NCBI RefSeq assembly: GCF_000426545.1
Contig: NZ_AUFO01000016.1
Span: 62,001 to 126,000 of the forward strand
Source of the DNA: Paenibacillus massiliensis subsp. panacisoli DSM 21345
Lineage (GTDB): Bacteria; Bacillota; Bacilli; Paenibacillales; Paenibacillaceae
DNA length: 64,000 nt
Reading direction: 5' to 3'
Shown: one piece after another, positions 2,094-8,323 of the stretch
How the letters are laid out: every line of letters starts with the position of its first letter
Position numbering within the stretch: position 1 is the stretch's first letter
Translations under genes and position numbers: made by a program
Notes under the pieces: model-generated
Databases searched by the model: none
Told to the model about the DNA's origin: nothing
What the model saw: the letters and a program-made list of their open reading frames with translations, nothing else

Positions 2094-2933
2094 ATGGAAA
2101 TCAAGTTATCCTTGGATTATGAAGCCTATGAAGGTGGAGCAGTAATGGTGGACCTGGTTCGTGAACTGGCGGGGAAGCCGGAGAGCACAGAGGTGACCTC
2201 ACTGATCATCGGTGACTGGGGGGGAGCCTATGAGCAGGGCCCGGAGGATTTTGTGGAAGAGCTGATTGCACAAAAGGAACAGTTCTCGCAATTAAAGAAG
2301 CTGTTTATTGGAGACATGGGCTACGAGGAATGTGAGGTTTCCTGGATCAATCAATCGAATCTGGGGCCGCTGCTGCAGGCTTTTCCCCTACTGGAGTCGT
2401 TCACGGTTAAGGGAAGCACAGATCTGGAGCTTGACCCGCTGAATCATGAGCATTTACAGGAGCTCGTCATTATTTGTGGTGGACTTCCAAAAAGAGTCCT
2501 TCATCAAATCCATGCAGCCTCTCTACCGGAGCTGCGGAAGCTGGAGCTGTATCTTGGGGTTGAAGACTATGGCTTTGATGGACAAATGGAGGATATCGTA
2601 CCATTTCTGAACCAGAATCCATTTCCGAAGCTGACTTATCTTGGGCTCAAGGATAGTGAGCTACAGGACGACATTGCAATCGCTGCTGCACAGTCCCCGG
2701 TGCTGAGTCAATTGGAGGTGCTTGACCTCTCCATGGGCACGCTGTCGGATCAAGGAGCTGAGGCTCTGCTGGCAAGCGAGGGTGTGCGTAAGCTCAAGCA
2801 TCTGAATCTAAGCTACCATTACATGTCGGATGAGATGCTGCTCAAATGGAAACAAACTGGACTGTCTGTAGATATAAGTGAACAGCAAGAGTCTGATGAG
2901 GATGATTGGCGTTATCCGGCATTGACCGAATAG
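2094..2933 (+). CDS. STM4015 family leucine-rich repeat protein
   Basis: A 279-residue acidic protein with leucine-rich repeats. Recurrent segments with regular leucines occur through the second half (FPLLESFTVKG, LQELVIICGGLP, FPKLTYLGLKDSEL, LSQLEVLDLSMGTLS, VRKLKHLNLSYHYM). Length and position match the STM4015 family, first member of the STM4011-4015 cluster named after Salmonella loci. The longest frame starts at 2079, but that ATG lies on the Shine-Dalgarno sequence GGAGGG (2081-2086). ATG 2094, seven bases after it, is the better start. No signal peptide or membrane segment is visible, so it is cytosolic. The role is unknown; a scaffold or protein-binding function is only a guess from the fold. 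Confidence 0.85.
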   Translation: MEIKLSLDYEAYEGGAVMVDLVRELAGKPESTEVTSLIIGDWGGAYEQGPEDFVEELIAQKEQFSQLKKLFIGDMGYEECEVSWINQSNLGPLLQAFPLLESFTVKGSTDLELDPLNHEHLQELVIICGGLPKRVLHQIHAASLPELRKLELYLGVEDYGFDGQMEDIVPFLNQNPFPKLTYLGLKDSELQDDIAIAAAQSPVLSQLEVLDLSMGTLSDQGAEALLASEGVRKLKHLNLSYHYMSDEMLLKWKQTGLSVDISEQQESDEDDWRYPALTE

Positions 2934-2990
2934 GATGTGCGATAGACATTAGTGAATGTAGCTGATGAACGTAGCAAAGGTGGGATCATC

Positions 2991-4334
2991 ATGAATCGCG
3001 CGACATGTGGGCAGATAGACGAGGGGATGCTTAACATCTATGCAGACAGCTCTCATGCGGACAACATCGCCTGGATGAAGAATGTGCCTTACATTGTCAT
3101 CGGTAATTCAGGCAATAAGCGCATACTCGGTATTCAACAAGCCAGAGCCAGTCTCGGACTGCAACCACCCATAGTGCTGACCTACCTTGAACTGCTGGAA
3201 TGGAAGCGTAGGGGTCGACACCTGTCGGAGATGCCTGAGTTGATGGCGGTGCATGCTAATCATTCTGCCAGCACCAGAGGCCCAGTCCTGCGTCTTGATG
3301 CCCCAGGTGATCATTTTGGTGTAGAAATGGAGCTTATCGCTCTAGGCGCCGAAGAGAACATAGGCGACGATAGCCTGCTACCCATGAAGGGCATTCTGGC
3401 TACAGGAAGAATGCTCTCGGCAGAGCAGGCCAGATCATTGCAGCCGCATCCAGGGCGTATTTGGTATCCTGCGCAGTGGTTCAAAGGCTACTGCCGATTG
3501 CTGGCATGGCTTCGCTCGGAAATGCTGCTATTATGGCCTGAGCATCACTGGATCAATGATCCTGTGGACATTCCAGTCATGTTCGACAAGCGCTGCACCA
3601 GTGCCCGTCTGTCTTCAGCAGGGGTGAGAGTCCCTCAATCGCTGCATGGGCACTTACTAAGCTCTTCTGCGCAGACTTATCGTGCGGATGTTGTGATTCC
3701 AGGAAGCGGCGAGGAGCTGAGAGAGAGCTTGCAGAAAGCTGGTATGCATCGCGCATTCATCAAGCTGTTCTGTGGCTCTGCTGCTTCGGGTGTGATTGCC
3801 TATCAATTTCATCCGGTGACAGGGAAAGAAATAGCTCAGACGACGATCGGCATGGAGCAAAGCAGAGGTGAACTCGTATTCTACAACTCTGGCCGCCTAC
3901 ACAAGTATACCGACGCAGCAAGCATCGGGCGACTGTTGGACTGGCTATGTCACGAGGGTGTACATGTGGAGCGCTGGATTCCCAAAGCTTCCGTTCATGG
4001 GAAAGCCTTCGATGTCCGGCAGCTTGTACACCGGGGCAAGGCCTGCCATGCCGTGCTACGTGCAAGTCGAACGCCGATTACCAATCTTCACCTACGCAAC
4101 GAACGTCTTCGGCCTGAGGAGGCAGGGCTAGCCAATCCTATCCTGCAGAAGGTGGCGGCAACAGCCGAGCAAGCTCTTGCGGCGTTTCCACATTCCACGA
4201 CAGCGGGAGTCGATGTGCTGGTTCCTACGGACGGTAGCGCACCCTATGTGGTGGACATGAATCCTTATGGTGATCTGCTGTATCATGTTCGCTATGAAGG
4301 CATGGACACGTATACCTGGGAAATGGCGCATTAA
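2991..4334 (+). CDS. STM4014 family protein, ATP-grasp-type ligase/kinase candidate
   Basis: A 447-residue cytosolic protein, second in the operon. The C-terminal half looks like an ATP-grasp fold: a nucleotide-binding strand with lysine (AFIKLFCGSAASGV), a central acidic strand (VHVERWIPKASV, then FDVRQLVHRGK) and a terminal metal-binding segment (GVDVLV...YVVDMNPYGDLL, with the D/N pair typical of ATP-grasp enzymes). The N-terminal part is less conserved. An upstream GTG at 2952 is in frame, but AAAGGTGGG at 2976-2984 places the start at ATG 2991. ATP-grasp enzymes usually join a carboxylate to an amine or thiol, so peptide-like ligation is plausible here. The substrate is unknown. Confidence 0.82.
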   Translation: MNRATCGQIDEGMLNIYADSSHADNIAWMKNVPYIVIGNSGNKRILGIQQARASLGLQPPIVLTYLELLEWKRRGRHLSEMPELMAVHANHSASTRGPVLRLDAPGDHFGVEMELIALGAEENIGDDSLLPMKGILATGRMLSAEQARSLQPHPGRIWYPAQWFKGYCRLLAWLRSEMLLLWPEHHWINDPVDIPVMFDKRCTSARLSSAGVRVPQSLHGHLLSSSAQTYRADVVIPGSGEELRESLQKAGMHRAFIKLFCGSAASGVIAYQFHPVTGKEIAQTTIGMEQSRGELVFYNSGRLHKYTDAASIGRLLDWLCHEGVHVERWIPKASVHGKAFDVRQLVHRGKACHAVLRASRTPITNLHLRNERLRPEEAGLANPILQKVAATAEQALAAFPHSTTAGVDVLVPTDGSAPYVVDMNPYGDLLYHVRYEGMDTYTWEMAH

Positions 4335-4378
4335 ATATAGAGTAAGATAGACAAATGCAATGACAAGGAGGGTGCCGA

Positions 4379-5161
4379 ATGCCAGATATGAATGAGATTG
4401 TAGGTACCCATGACATCCTGATGATTACACTGGATACGCTGCGTTATGATGTAGCCAAGCTGGAGGAGGAACATTGTCCAAACCTGTGTGCGGATGGCCC
4501 CTGGGAGAAGCGACATACACCAGGAAGCTTTACCTATGCGGCTCACCATGCCTTCTTTGGTGGATTTCTACCGACGCCAGCGAACACCGACAAAACCTCA
4601 CATGTAAGGTTGTTTCATACGAAAAATACAGGACTGCCCACGCACCCCCATAGCTGGTTGTTTGATGCACCTGATCTGGTAACAGGACTACAGCAGGAAG
4701 GGTATCGGACCATTTGTATAGGTGGCGTCATCTTCTTCACCAAAAAGAACAAACTGGCCAAGGTACTGCCATCATACTTTATGGAAAGCTACTGGCGGAT
4801 GACCTTCGGTGTAACGAACCCGAGATCCACGGAGCATCAAGTAAATCATGCGCTGAAGCTTCTAGCTGATGCTGATCCTGCGCAGCGGCTATTTATGTTT
4901 TTAAATGTGTCGGCTCTGCATGGCCCCAATCATTATTTTGTACCGGGCGCGAAGAAGGATTCCATCGAGACCCAGAGAGCGGGGCTTCGATATGTGGATG
5001 AGCAATTGGGGCCTCTGTTCGAAGCGATGCGCAGACGCTCCAAGACCTTCTGCATGGTGTTCTCGGATCATGGAACGGCCTACGGAGAGGATGGCTATGA
5101 AGGTCATCGGCTAGCACACGAGGTCGTCTGGAATGTGCCATATCGCGAATTCTTCCTGTGA
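4379..5161 (+). CDS. STM4013/SEN3800 family hydrolase (alkaline phosphatase/sulfatase fold)
   Basis: A 260-residue protein of the alkaline phosphatase superfamily, close to the usual length of the STM4013 family. Metal-site motifs are visible. An N-terminal LDT (Asp19) follows a hydrophobic strand, a candidate nucleophile Thr52 lies in GSFTYAAHHAFFGG, and the C-terminal metal motif FSDHGTAYGEDGYEGHRLAH gives Asp230, His231 and His243/247. There is no signal peptide, unlike most secreted sulfatases and phosphatases, so a soluble intracellular phosphate or sulfate ester is the likely substrate type. The start ATG 4379 follows AAGGAGGG. A sulfatase role would fit with the APS kinase at the end of the operon, but this is inference. 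Confidence 0.85.
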   Translation: MPDMNEIVGTHDILMITLDTLRYDVAKLEEEHCPNLCADGPWEKRHTPGSFTYAAHHAFFGGFLPTPANTDKTSHVRLFHTKNTGLPTHPHSWLFDAPDLVTGLQQEGYRTICIGGVIFFTKKNKLAKVLPSYFMESYWRMTFGVTNPRSTEHQVNHALKLLADADPAQRLFMFLNVSALHGPNHYFVPGAKKDSIETQRAGLRYVDEQLGPLFEAMRRRSKTFCMVFSDHGTAYGEDGYEGHRLAHEVVWNVPYREFFL

Positions 5162-5249
5162 TGAGAAATATCGCGCAGCAGACAGCAGATTGAAGTATGA
5201 ACGGGGGCTTGATGTCCTGATGAAGCATACATGAAAGGAGGGAGCATTA

Positions 5250-6674
5250 ATGAGTACCGTGCCCGAGGAATCGGCTCTGTTCATGAATCGTGGCGGCTCT
5301 ACACATCTGAGTGAGAGGCCACAGCGAATGAACAGAGCAGATTGGCCGCAGCACTGGATCGAATGGGAGGCAGGACTACAGGAGGCCCCCTATCGTTCTT
5401 ATTTATACTCTTATCCACATAAGACGGCATATCATGAGATTAATCCACCAATTCCATTATCCACCCTATGGAGTAAGGAGAAGCTGGAGAGCTATTTTTT
5501 GTACATGCATATCCCGTTCTGCGGTGCGAGATGTGGCTTCTGCAATCTCTTCACGCTCCCGGATCGAAGAGCTGATGTCCATGTGGAGTACGTGGATGCG
5601 CTTGAGCGTCAGGCACGTGAATGGGCCCCCTTTGTGAAGGGAAGTCCGTTCTCACGCTTTGCGATTGGTGGTGGAACACCTACCTTGCTGTCAGCGGAGC
5701 TGCTGGAGCGGGTATTCCATATTGCCAAGCAAGAGATGGGGCTGGATACGGAGCAAGTCTCTATTTCGGTGGAGACCTCACCGGATACAGTTACTCCCGA
5801 TCGGCTGGAGGTGCTGAAGAAGCACCGTACCGATCGAATCAGCATGGGCATTCAGAGCTTTGTAGAAGAGGAGAGCACAGCCATTCATCGACCGCAAAAG
5901 CCCGCTCTGGTCCGACAGGCATTGGATATGCTACAAGAGTATCGTTTCCCGCTACTGAATGTAGACCTGATCTATGGACTACCTGGGCAGACGGTGGAGT
6001 CGTGGCTGTATTCGCTGGAACAGGCTCTGTCGTACAATCCCGGTGAAATCTTCATTTACCCACTATATGTTCGTGAGAATACCATTCTCAAGCCTGGACA
6101 GACTGGGCTAGAGAAGGATATTCGCCTTGAGCTATACAAGGCCGCGAGTCAACGGCTTCTGCAGGCTGGCTATAAGCAGTTCTCCATGCGACGCTTTGCA
6201 CGTGAGGGTGCAGGTACTACGAAGTCACTGCTTCCCTACAGCTGTCAGGAGGAAGGAATGGTAGGTCTGGGATGCGGCGCACGCTCGTATACTCAGGGCG
6301 TTCATTACGCTTCCAGATACGGTACGAGCATTGCAGCTACACGGCATATTCTTGCAGATTATGTGGCAGCCAAGCGACATGATGCCGTGGACTACGGCTT
6401 CATCTTGAATGAAGAGGAGCGGCAGCGTCGTTTCATCCTGAAGGCACTTCTCCATGCAGAGGGACTGGAGCTTGCAGCCTATAGTGAGCGCTTTGGCGCA
6501 GAGCCCTTCGTTCACGTACCAGAGCTGTCGATGCTGGTCGGTACAGGAGTTGCATATATTGAAGAGGACGTTCTTCGACTGACAGAGGAGGGCATTGGCT
6601 ACTCGGATGCCATTGGGGATTGGTTGATTTCATCCGATGTTCGTAACCGAATGGAAGGATATGTACACGCATGA
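5250..6674 (+). CDS. STM4012 family radical SAM protein (HemN/HemW-like)
   Basis: A 474-residue radical SAM enzyme. The cluster-binding motif CGARCGFC (Cys91, Cys95, Cys98) follows YMHIPF, which is the HemN/coproporphyrinogen-dehydrogenase type of arrangement. Further core elements are FAIGGGTPTLL (SAM-binding glycine strand), the ISVETSPDTV and ISMGIQSF strands and VDLIYGLPGQT. The C-terminal part resembles the HemN C-terminal domain. It is not the heme enzyme itself, judging from its place in the STM401x cluster and the lack of heme genes nearby. The start has a strong AAAGGAGGG site. The end overlaps the next gene by four bases (ATGA), so the two radical SAM enzymes are probably translationally coupled. 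Confidence 0.88.
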   Translation: MSTVPEESALFMNRGGSTHLSERPQRMNRADWPQHWIEWEAGLQEAPYRSYLYSYPHKTAYHEINPPIPLSTLWSKEKLESYFLYMHIPFCGARCGFCNLFTLPDRRADVHVEYVDALERQAREWAPFVKGSPFSRFAIGGGTPTLLSAELLERVFHIAKQEMGLDTEQVSISVETSPDTVTPDRLEVLKKHRTDRISMGIQSFVEEESTAIHRPQKPALVRQALDMLQEYRFPLLNVDLIYGLPGQTVESWLYSLEQALSYNPGEIFIYPLYVRENTILKPGQTGLEKDIRLELYKAASQRLLQAGYKQFSMRRFAREGAGTTKSLLPYSCQEEGMVGLGCGARSYTQGVHYASRYGTSIAATRHILADYVAAKRHDAVDYGFILNEEERQRRFILKALLHAEGLELAAYSERFGAEPFVHVPELSMLVGTGVAYIEEDVLRLTEEGIGYSDAIGDWLISSDVRNRMEGYVHA

Positions 6675-7561
6675 GGGCGACTTTATATTATCGAGGGACA
6701 CTATCCTCTTGTAATTATACTTGTCCATATTGTCCTTTCAGCAAGACGAAGGATTCGCGGGAGACACTAATGCTTGATCGCAGACAGCTGGCGGAATTTG
6801 TAGACTGGGTTGAAGCACAGCAGGAGCATGGGCATACGCTGTCGATCTTTTTTAATCCCTACGGCGAGGCGTTGATTCATTCCTGGTATCGCGAGGCTCT
6901 GGTACGTTTATCCCATATGCCCCATATCGAGAAGTTATCTATTCAGACGAATCTATCCGTGAAGCTGGACTGGACGGAGCAATTGCAGCCAGGGAAAATG
7001 TCATTCTGGGCGACTTATCATCCAGGACAGACACAGGAAGACCACTTTCTGTCTCAATGTCAAGCCATCTACAGCCGTGGGCTTGGACTTAGTGTTGGAA
7101 CGGTGGGGATTCGTCAGTCGTTTCCAGCCATTCGTTCGCTCCGGGCTCAGCTTCCGAAGGAGGTCTATATGTGGGTGAATGCCTTCAAAGACCGCCCACA
7201 TTATTACACGCCCGCGGAGATTGAGGAATTAACCACTCTTGATCCTCACTTTGGATGGAATGTACAGGATTATCCGAGTCAGGGCAAGGCTTGTGCAGCA
7301 GGAGAGACGGTCTTCTACGTGCAGGGGAATGGGAATGTCAAACGATGCTACAAGGATCGGCAAGTCATCGGTCATCTCTATCGGCAAGGACTTGAGGGAT
7401 TGGCTGCTGAGCGAAGCTGTCGCATGAAGATGTGTGGCTGTCACATCGGATATATCCATATGAAGGGGCATCCGATTGGTGAGCAATTCGGCGGAGGACT
7501 GCTGGAACGGATTCCAGGTCGACCGATACCGCAGGAGGACAGGGAGGTGCAGCAGGCATGA
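6671..7561 (+). CDS. STM4011 family radical SAM protein
   Basis: A 296-residue radical SAM enzyme with a canonical CX3CX2C motif very near the N-terminus (Cys14, Cys18, Cys21 in SSCNYTCPYC). The C-terminal region has another set of cysteines (GKACAAGE, VKRCYKDR, SCRMKMCGCHIG) suggestive of an auxiliary iron-sulfur cluster, as in SPASM-type enzymes that modify peptides. It overlaps the preceding radical SAM gene and the following kinase gene by four bases each. The reaction is unknown; auxiliary-cluster radical SAM enzymes often act on peptide or small-molecule substrates, which would fit with the ATP-grasp neighbour. Confidence 0.86.
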   Translation: MRATLYYRGTLSSCNYTCPYCPFSKTKDSRETLMLDRRQLAEFVDWVEAQQEHGHTLSIFFNPYGEALIHSWYREALVRLSHMPHIEKLSIQTNLSVKLDWTEQLQPGKMSFWATYHPGQTQEDHFLSQCQAIYSRGLGLSVGTVGIRQSFPAIRSLRAQLPKEVYMWVNAFKDRPHYYTPAEIEELTTLDPHFGWNVQDYPSQGKACAAGETVFYVQGNGNVKRCYKDRQVIGHLYRQGLEGLAAERSCRMKMCGCHIGYIHMKGHPIGEQFGGGLLERIPGRPIPQEDREVQQA

Positions 7562-8169
7562 TACAGGCTCGTACGCCGCTTCTGCGACGAGACAAGGAAC
7601 AGCTTAACGAGCATACAGCAGCCGTAATCTGGTTAACGGGTCTGCCCGGAGCAGGCAAATCCACGCTTGCTATAGAGCTTGAGCATATCCTGCATGAGCA
7701 GGGCATTCGAACGGCCCTCTTGGATGGGGATGTATTGCGCCAAGGCCTTAACTGTGATCTGGGGTTTACTGCCGAGGCAAGAGCAGAGAATATTCGAAGG
7801 ACAGCCGAAGCCGCACGTCTACTAGCGAATGCGGGAGTGGTTACCATCTGTGCATTGATTTCACCCTACGAAGCAGATCGTCAGCAGGCCAGAGAAATCA
7901 TCGGTCCCATTCCGTTCTGCGAGGTGTATGTGGATTGTGACCTTGATATTTGCGAAAGTCGTGATCCTAAGGGAATGTATCGGAAGGCACGAAGTGGAGA
8001 TATTCCGGATTTTACAGGAGTCAGTGCACCCTATGAGGTACCCGCTCACCCAGAGCTGCGAATTGCGACTGGGCACAAGGATGTGAAGCAATCGGTCGAT
8101 GAGCTGCTGTCCGGGCTGTCAGCACTGCAGTTGATTCGAAACGTGAGATTGGATAACGTTCATCACTAG
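7558..8169 (+). CDS. cysC: Adenylylsulfate (APS) kinase family protein
   Basis: A 203-residue P-loop kinase of the APS kinase family, which phosphorylates adenylylsulfate to PAPS. Visible motifs are Walker A GLPGAGKS (residues 28-35), LLDGDVLRQGLNCDLGF, the RRTAEAARLLANAG helix, ALISPYEADRQ, the VYVDCDLDICESRDPKGMYRKARSG substrate lid and FTGVSAPYE. Length is usual. It starts inside the stop of the STM4011 gene (ATGA overlap) and is the last gene of the operon. No ATP sulfurylase, PAPS reductase or sulfotransferase is in the window. It may therefore make PAPS for a sulfation step, or phosphorylate a pathway intermediate. The gene symbol reflects the family, not proven function. Confidence 0.85.
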   Translation: MIQARTPLLRRDKEQLNEHTAAVIWLTGLPGAGKSTLAIELEHILHEQGIRTALLDGDVLRQGLNCDLGFTAEARAENIRRTAEAARLLANAGVVTICALISPYEADRQQAREIIGPIPFCEVYVDCDLDICESRDPKGMYRKARSGDIPDFTGVSAPYEVPAHPELRIATGHKDVKQSVDELLSGLSALQLIRNVRLDNVHH

Positions 8170-8248
8170 AGCCATTTGAATTTTGGACATTAGAGACAAT
8201 CAAATTCAGCGATGCAGAAAAGATGGGTCTGATTTTAGCTTATGTGCA

Positions 8249-8293
8249 AAAAGGGGATTCCCCGGTTCATAGAACCAGCGGGAATCCCCTTTG
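8249..8293. terminator. Bidirectional terminator between the STM401x/APS kinase operon and yxcD
   Basis: A long stem pairs AAAGGGGATTCCC (from 8250) with GGGAATCCCCTTT (8280-8292). A smaller GGTTC/GAACC helix sits in the loop, with A-rich sequence on the left and T-rich on the right. It lies between convergent genes and can serve both strands. Confidence 0.85.
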
Positions 8294-8323
8294 CTATTAG
8301 CGTATATCTATTCGGTGTTCAGA

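Follow-up and report, generated by a model that had tools for sequence, protein, structure and literature searches.

Five genes, STM4015 to STM4011, lie on the plus strand of a 64,000-nucleotide stretch of a Paenibacillus genome contig (G000:C12:62001-126000; hereafter the window), where they occupy positions 2094-8169 together with a gene for an adenosine 5'-phosphosulfate (APS) kinase. We propose that these five genes specify a protein-tethered biosynthetic or tail-maturing system. STM4015, a leucine-rich repeat (LRR) protein, ends in a conserved tail whose last residue is Glu in every family member scored, and its partners include a RimK-like ATP-grasp ligase (STM4014) and two radical S-adenosylmethionine (SAM) enzymes (STM4012 and STM4011). 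We propose a carrier role for STM4015 because an invariant C-terminal Glu beside a RimK-like ligase recalls the LysW/LysX system. Chances are about even that STM4015 works in the manner of LysW or the pearlins, being loaded by STM4014 and modified by the two radical SAM enzymes.

The five families are named only after Salmonella loci, yet the set spans seven phyla. A survey of the open-access literature by gene names, family names and combinations of parts, with subscription journals mostly outside its scope, returned no characterised pathway and no functional study, and the description of the set as uncharacterised in a first-pass annotation of this DNA therefore holds. In the excerpts available from papers that name them, the STM genes appear as passing mentions in single table rows. 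The conserved Glu end and the RimK-like ligase turn an uncharacterised operon into a question for a single experiment, namely whether the STM4015 tail is modified. If it is, this would add an LRR-type carrier protein, a new small-molecule route and a mass-spectrometric handle on the product.

The C-terminal tail of STM4015

STM4015 is a homologue of the protein of solved structure 2ra8 (E 1e-85). This Bacteroides fragilis protein aligns through the end of the profile (YSYPMITE), and the eight chain residues that remain are probably a tag. Members of the family end in a variable acidic linker followed by a tail of the approximate form [YW]R[YF]x-[AES]-V-[STG]-Glu, with examples including WRYPALTE in the window, RYVAVAE in Streptomyces, RSIAVSE in Methylobacterium, RFVALGE in Deinococcus, YYPMITE in Bacteroides and MNAMYTE in Salmonella (L021). 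The last residue is Glu in 351 of 351 scored proteins and in all 139 of the non-redundant ones. The larger collection, which includes near-identical proteins, combines 240 sequences from two homologue lists (the best 120 of 1,967 and the best 120 of 417) with the remainder from genomic loci, all scoring above 150 bits. Two open reading frames (ORFs) below this score were excluded, one Glu-ended with an atypical tail (L080) and the other a 45-bit frame ending in Arg (L081).

Among the 139 non-redundant proteins, relative entropies at positions -8 to -1 are 2.50, 3.90, 4.29, 2.35, 1.67, 2.59, 2.05 and 3.45 bits, compared with 0.23-1.80 bits at linker positions -25 to -9; the mean over all STM4015 columns is 1.99 bits. 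The strongest tail columns are the aromatic position -6 (Tyr in 117 and Phe in 17, or 134/139), Arg at -7 (121/139) and the terminal Glu, and position -8 is Tyr or Trp in 92/139. The regular expression for the tail was written after the first tails had been viewed, so only the later set of 120 proteins, the best 120 of 417 for a distant query, counts as a test. In this set every protein ends in Glu and 110 match the expression as fixed beforehand. The ten misses comprise six of an MNAMLTE form akin to that of Salmonella and four that differ at one place. The query itself, P0121, is among the 120, and it alone is identical to a protein from the loci.

These loci come from an STM4011 alignment scan of reference genomes, which found at least 536 relatives; the best 80 loci, 56 of them from Paenibacillaceae, were taken further. 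The expression matches 106 of the 114 STM4015 ORFs in the loci and none of the 12,555 other locus ORFs, 445 of which end in Glu. STM4011 to STM4014 from the 76 loci that are complete have no single fixed last residue. The terminal Glu was also considered as a by-product of overlapping start and stop codons of the ATGA kind, and this explanation was rejected. Both Glu codons are used (GAG 50 and GAA 48 in 98 STM4015 genes; GAA 31 and GAG 25 in the 56 Paenibacillaceae genes), and 67 of the 98 genes have no overlap; for these reasons the constraint is taken to act on the protein. Arg at -7 and Thr at -2 are likewise fixed via several codons in the Paenibacillaceae genes. The ratio of nonsynonymous to synonymous codon changes is 0.46 in the tail and 0.54 in the LRR body, which leans slightly towards the tail and is not proof.

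Copy number sets STM4015 apart from its partners. Six tandem STM4015 copies are present in Actinomadura rifamycini (L093), five in Actinomadura atramentaria (L081) and two in each of seven other loci (L084, L095, L096, L102, L097, L101 and L103). In these multi-copy loci the enzymes are single and every STM4015 copy keeps the terminal Glu. Multiple copies beside single enzymes are the behaviour of a substrate or carrier. Between paralogues of the seven two-copy loci, identity is 0.71-0.86 in the tail and 0.48-0.64 in the body. These sequence patterns suggest that the tail is a new carrier-like element and that its invariant Glu end makes STM4015 a likely carrier or substrate.

The five-gene set and its enzymes

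The features of the set, with the profile scores on which their assignments are based, are as follows.

2094..2933, + strand: STM4015, LRR protein of 279 amino acids, proposed carrier or scaffold (NF038076, 357.6 bits, cut-off 275; homologue of 2ra8)
2856..2906, + strand: acidic linker of STM4015, codons -25 to -9, variable in the family (relative entropy 0.23-1.80 bits, n=139)
2907..2930, + strand: conserved C-terminal tail of STM4015, WRYPALTE, with the invariant last Glu (351/351 Glu-ended; entropy 1.67-4.29 bits)
2991..4334, + strand: STM4014, RimK-like ATP-grasp ligase, proposed tail loader (NF038074, 400.1 bits, cut-off 175)
4379..5161, + strand: STM4013, hydrolase of the alkaline phosphatase superfamily with Thr at the likely nucleophile place (NF038075, 405.9 bits, cut-off 250; PF00884)
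5250..6674, + strand: STM4012, HemN-like radical SAM enzyme (NF006067, 590.4 bits, cut-off 380)
6671..7561, + strand: STM4011, radical SAM enzyme with five further invariant C-terminal Cys, twitch/SPASM-like (NF038073, 400.6 bits, cut-off 200)
7558..8169, + strand: APS kinase (CysC-like), accessory (TIGR00455 apsK, 226.7 bits, cut-off 138.7)
8246..8294, + strand: strong hairpin 3' of the set, before a convergent DUF2653 gene (minimum free energy -30.7 kcal/mol, z -6.8)

All six same-strand ORFs of the first-pass annotation are thus present and score above their NCBIfam cut-offs. The four-base overlaps that it described exist at two of the five junctions (6671-6674 and 7558-7561), and the other three junctions are gaps of 57, 44 and 88 bases. 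For its single terminator the candidate is the hairpin at 8246-8294, but a pattern scan made no terminator call there, and of the two sides of the hairpin the minus-strand one has the longer T-run. A single promoter is not established, with 12 promoter-like matches in the region compared with a shuffled mean of 8.0 (standard deviation 2.6). The same pattern scan places a terminator-like site of the preceding gene at 1835-1865.

The five STM families occur together in 76 of the 80 loci, and in 73 of these 76 all five genes are on one strand. The four incomplete loci are L080, L083, L086 and L098, of which L086 and L098 lie near contig ends; L083 holds only STM4012 and STM4011, and two STM4015 genes are on another contig of the same genome. 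Among 59 genomes (that of the window and 58 relatives), STM4015 and STM4011 are both present in the same 31 and both absent from the same 28. The grouping is therefore not a matter of chance. In one of the 31, stop codons interrupt STM4011 (G011:C1:5635058-5635890) while STM4015 is kept.

Assignment of STM4014 to the ATP-grasp enzymes draws on its family. The window protein alone has no Pfam match at 1e-3, its only hit being to ATP-grasp_3 (E 0.055), whereas relatives within the family match ATP-grasp families with E values down to 1e-12. The best matches of the STM4014 profile in the PDB are LysX (1uc8/1uc9, E 1.6e-5), 3vpd and RimK; for 1uc8, 3vpd and 5zct the E values range from 1.6e-5 to 2e-4, with no single stretch being significant. 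Profile alignment by hhalign gives a probability of 96.4% (E 1.2e-9, 181 columns) against nine RimK-family proteins and 44.9% (47 columns) against 30 D-Ala-D-Ala ligases.

The profile of STM4012 matches HemN (1olt, E 2.8e-57, 405 profile positions) and NocN (9p2u, E 3.4e-31, 273 positions). The protein scores 145.8 bits against the HemN family TIGR00538 (cut-off 324.95) and 162.2 bits against the NCBIfam model for HemW (cut-off 205.4), and so lies below both cut-offs. STM4011 carries CxxxCxxC and five more Cys (C208, C226, C250, C255 and C257), all invariant in 30/30 sequences, in agreement with the earlier report of extra C-terminal cysteines in one radical SAM enzyme. Its C-terminal part matches the C-terminal cluster region of SkfB (E 6.3e-5 and 0.0018).

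STM4013 had been described as a phosphate or sulfate ester hydrolase. Its Thr52 is invariant (12/12 in the alignment) in a region that reads SFTYAAHHAFF, and a weak alignment sets this residue on the nucleophile Thr of the nucleotide pyrophosphatase/phosphodiesterase (NPP) enzymes (SLTFPNH). Sulfatases that use formylglycine carry the motif Cys/Ser-x-Pro/Ala-x-Arg, which was not found in the Thr52 region. On these two grounds a phosphate (di)ester appears a likelier substrate than a sulfate ester. A phosphatase of the haloacid dehalogenase (HAD) type follows STM4011 in Salmonella (Cof-type, directly 3') and in E. coli, and is fused to STM4011 in Bacteroides.

A known anti-phage defence system was also considered and rejected, as none of the six proteins makes up a system recognised by PADLOC. 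Only single, partial matches were found, for STM4012 (PDC-M51A, E 2.8e-13, over a portion of the radical SAM domain), STM4011 (pVip, 8.9e-4) and the APS kinase (PprDinG, 2.3e-4).

Distribution, neighbours and the APS kinase

Annotated plasmid records of Streptomyces, Methylobacterium, Deinococcus and Salmonella carry the same five genes, and complete sets are also found in Flammeovirga (L092), Myxococcus (L097 and L103) and a Gemmataceae metagenome-assembled genome (MAG; L091), whose phyla we took from the organism names. The set was thus met in Bacillota, Actinomycetota, Pseudomonadota, Deinococcota, Bacteroidota, Myxococcota and Planctomycetota. Its distribution is sporadic. The set matches in 154 of 5,426 complete E. 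coli genomes. STM4015 searches of two phylum samples at E <= 0.001 gave matches in 4/296 and 4/398 genomes, and in each sample the one match above the STM4015 cut-off was the named centre genome itself. With the centre excluded, a near-full-length STM4015 match was present in 1/295 genomes of the Flammeovirga phylum (273.6 bits, just below the cut-off) and in 0/397 of the second sample.

Several variants and neighbours were recorded alongside this survey. In enteric bacteria (L021, Salmonella; L218, E. coli) the set lies between the yihQ/yihP/yihO/ompL side, which the E. coli annotation identifies as sulfoquinovose genes, and typA-glnA; STM4015 is annotated as frameshifted in one copy. A locus recorded as Comamonas sp. 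KCTC 72670 (L101, 9.0-Mb genome) is split and Myxococcus-like, and the name may be wrong. Outside Paenibacillus, a DUF6745 protein is a frequent neighbour of the set (L015, L016, L017, L082, L087, L090, L091, L094, L095 and others); it has its own conserved C-terminus, approximately Y-x-P-x-x-[EQ]-[TA], and one member has a weak match to an LRR protein. An STM4013-like hydrolase also occurs in a different cluster on a Streptomyces albidoflavus plasmid (L018, 4860-8309), where its partners are a MoaA-like radical SAM protein, a dTMP-kinase-like protein and a NUDIX hydrolase.

The APS kinase, counted in the first-pass annotation as a sixth member, is outside the core, and the unit is the first five genes. 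Surveying the neighbourhood for cysC, as had been suggested, showed strong co-occurrence of these five and a minority six-gene form, with the kinase 3' of STM4011 in 21 of the 56 loci from Paenibacillaceae and in none of the 24 others. In two of the 21, L048 and L049, the kinase comes about 500 bases after STM4011. A unit of six genes was rejected on by-eye comparison of 30 other STM4015 genomes of the same genus, in none of which is an APS kinase near STM4015; the two lie on different contigs or are separated by 190 kb or more. A 100-kb plasmid of Paenibacillus sp. IHB B 3084 (pHD02, L014) carries the set with the upstream adaptor gene and the downstream DUF2653 gene, and without the kinase.

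The kinase may nonetheless have a function in the pathway of this lineage, providing 3'-phosphoadenosine 5'-phosphosulfate (PAPS) or phosphorylating an intermediate, and we rate this possibility somewhat below an even chance. It recurs in the same slot after STM4011, and in 12 of the 21 set-linked cases a start codon of the kinase and the STM4011 stop share a four-base overlap, the arrangement also found in the window. In a phylogenetic tree the window kinase groups with unlinked kinases, apart from the 21 set-linked ones, and forcing it together with the latter is marginally rejected (approximately unbiased (AU) test, p 0.041), suggesting that the same slot was filled twice by an APS kinase. 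This tree result is marginal in view of the long branch of the window kinase (1.23), its highest identity being to a set-linked kinase (51%, L059), and the placement of the unlinked kinases L122 and L123 among the set-linked ones. The genome also has a sat-cysH pair elsewhere without an adjoining cysC, and its CysH has CC..CxxC cysteines, which we take to be a mark of enzymes able to reduce APS directly. Against a pathway role stand the distant or missing kinase in the same-genus genomes and on the syntenic plasmid, and the absence of any match in the genome to PF13469, the sole sulfotransferase family searched. The window kinase is moreover the only PF01583 match in the genome, so it may simply serve sulfate assimilation. 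It could serve the pathway of the set, sulfate assimilation or both.

A carrier proposal and its rivals

The earlier suggestion of a pathway to a modified small molecule or peptide fits the conserved, biosynthetic-looking set and its ATP-grasp and radical SAM chemistry, but it had given the LRR protein no role. In the mechanism that we propose, the LRR body of STM4015 would be a recognition platform, and the acidic linker would present the tail with its free Glu. STM4014 would activate a carboxylate of this Glu and, like LysX acting on LysW, attach an amine to it, which would probably be an amino acid. STM4012 and STM4011 would follow with radical chemistry on the attached group or on the tail. 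For STM4013, joined in some lineages by the HAD phosphatase, the substrate may be a phosphate (di)ester, either within the pathway or at release, and in some Paenibacillaceae the APS kinase may supply PAPS or phosphorylate an intermediate. The sequence data show that the genes occur together, that the tail exists and is conserved, to which families the enzymes belong and that copy numbers are unequal; the covalent change of the tail, the enzyme responsible, the order of steps and the product are what we infer from them. A broader form of the proposal is a new class of carrier-protein biosynthesis, in which the free C-terminal Glu of an LRR protein is loaded by a dedicated RimK-like ligase and HemN-like and twitch-type radical SAM enzymes build a metabolite or cofactor. 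This form also takes in the sporadic spread over at least seven phyla and the tandem carrier families of Actinomadura, and we place it just short of even.

A number of observations weigh against a carrier role. The last STM4015 column ranks only 30th of 310 in conservation, with parts of the LRR body being more conserved, and between paralogues of the two Actinomadura arrays the tail (identity 0.64 and 0.69) is kept no better than the body (0.65 and 0.66). STM4012 also has a preference at its chain end, which is basic (Arg or Lys) in 19 of 20 loci outside Paenibacillaceae. The link of STM4014 to RimK and LysX is remote by sequence comparison, with weak PDB matches, and Pfam matches over 46 family members are to ATPgrasp_ST (36), ATP-grasp_3 (33), YheC/D (18) and RimK (10). 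The LysX carrier-recognition motif GSWGR is present in 0/46 STM4014 proteins, although a differing carrier tail would predict its absence. No product-releasing peptidase belongs to the set, and conserved tails can be mere docking motifs. Two variant loci also fit poorly. A Bacteroides finegoldii plasmid (L020, 4876-8893) has a reduced set comprising an STM4015 with a WGR domain, STM4014 and an STM4011-HAD fusion, without STM4012 and with only a short STM4013 fragment. In a Gemmata MAG (L080, 10797-13442) a distant LRR protein replaces STM4015 beside a distant STM4014, a possible scaffold swap; its tail is atypical, and still ends in Glu.

Three other readings of the tail were weighed. It might be a peptide core matured in place, as PqqA is by PqqE, with the radical SAM enzymes cross-linking or oxidising Tyr/Phe -6 and Glu -1, the ATP-grasp enzyme closing or capping the tail, and a small molecule being cut out. 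Twitch/SPASM enzymes commonly act on peptides, the C-terminal cluster region of STM4011 is SkfB-like, and the residues concerned, with Arg -7, form the strongest tail columns. However, the MNAMYTE/MNAMLTE group (Salmonella L021; 6/120) loses the aromatic residue at -6 while keeping the terminal Glu, the set has no protease, and a large folded LRR domain is attached to the tail. We consider in-place maturation unlikely. We also give little weight to a tail that serves docking only, in which case STM4015, as an LRR scaffold, would bring the enzymes together or bind STM4014, and a free small molecule would be the substrate. LRR proteins usually bind partners, and a motif at a terminal carboxylate can be read like a PDZ ligand. 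The paralogue arrays are possibly alternative adaptors, with which the ordinary conservation of the Actinomadura tails would agree. This explanation does not account for why the feature that never varies should be a Glu at the chain end, nor for the pairing with a RimK-like ligase; the protein substrates known for that ligase family are Glu-ended. The protein substrate of RimK ends in Glu. LysW is another such substrate of a RimK-family ligase, according to the excerpted text of PMC10433800. Up to six scaffolds per enzyme set would also be an odd stoichiometry.

Protein conjugation, in which the terminal Glu of STM4015 would be ligated to a target amine in a Pup-like manner and the LRR body would pick the target, is very improbable. 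It would make use of the C-terminal Glu and an ATP-dependent ligase, and the 48-77% identity of LRR paralogues within one locus is compatible with it, but the two radical SAM enzymes and the phosphoesterase are left unexplained and no target is known.

The carrier proposal for STM4015 has its closest parallel in LysW and LysX. In the excerpted account of that system, LysX and ArgX load the C-terminal Glu54 of the EDWGE tail of LysW, with LysX joining the amino group of the substrate to the Glu gamma-carboxyl (PMC10433800). Both systems place an ATP-grasp ligase, in the STM set one with a remote likeness to RimK, beside a protein with an acidic, aromatic, Glu-ended tail. They differ in that LysW has zinc-binding Cys and the EDWGE end, whereas STM4015 is an LRR protein with ends such as WRYP.LTE and RYVAVSE, and in that STM4014 proteins lack the GSWGR of LysX (same excerpt). 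In place of LysZ/Y/J/K, the STM set has radical SAM enzymes and a hydrolase of the alkaline phosphatase fold. Judged by fold and motif, both of which differ, STM4015 is not a member of the LysW family.

The PEARL enzymes are lantibiotic-dehydratase-like, and no PEARL-type family is among the NCBIfam or Pfam matches of the six proteins. Pearlins offer a looser likeness than LysW, in that a ribosomal carrier bears the growing small molecule on its C-terminal end and one example includes a radical SAM step, as far as the excerpted text describes them (PMC9303977). The STM set differs in having an ATP-grasp ligase and a large LRR carrier, and in being without a protease. The pyrroloquinoline quinone (PQQ) pathway is similar in pairing a radical SAM enzyme that has auxiliary-cluster cysteines with a peptide, PqqA, that carries conserved Glu and aromatic residues. 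It differs in that STM4012 is HemN-like and the STM4015 tail is fused to an LRR domain, and no Pqq family is among the NCBIfam or Pfam matches of the six proteins. Finally, the profile matches of STM4012 to 1olt and 9p2u liken it to HemN and to the class C radical SAM methyltransferase NocN, whereas it scores below the HemN and HemW cut-offs and belongs to a conserved family of its own.

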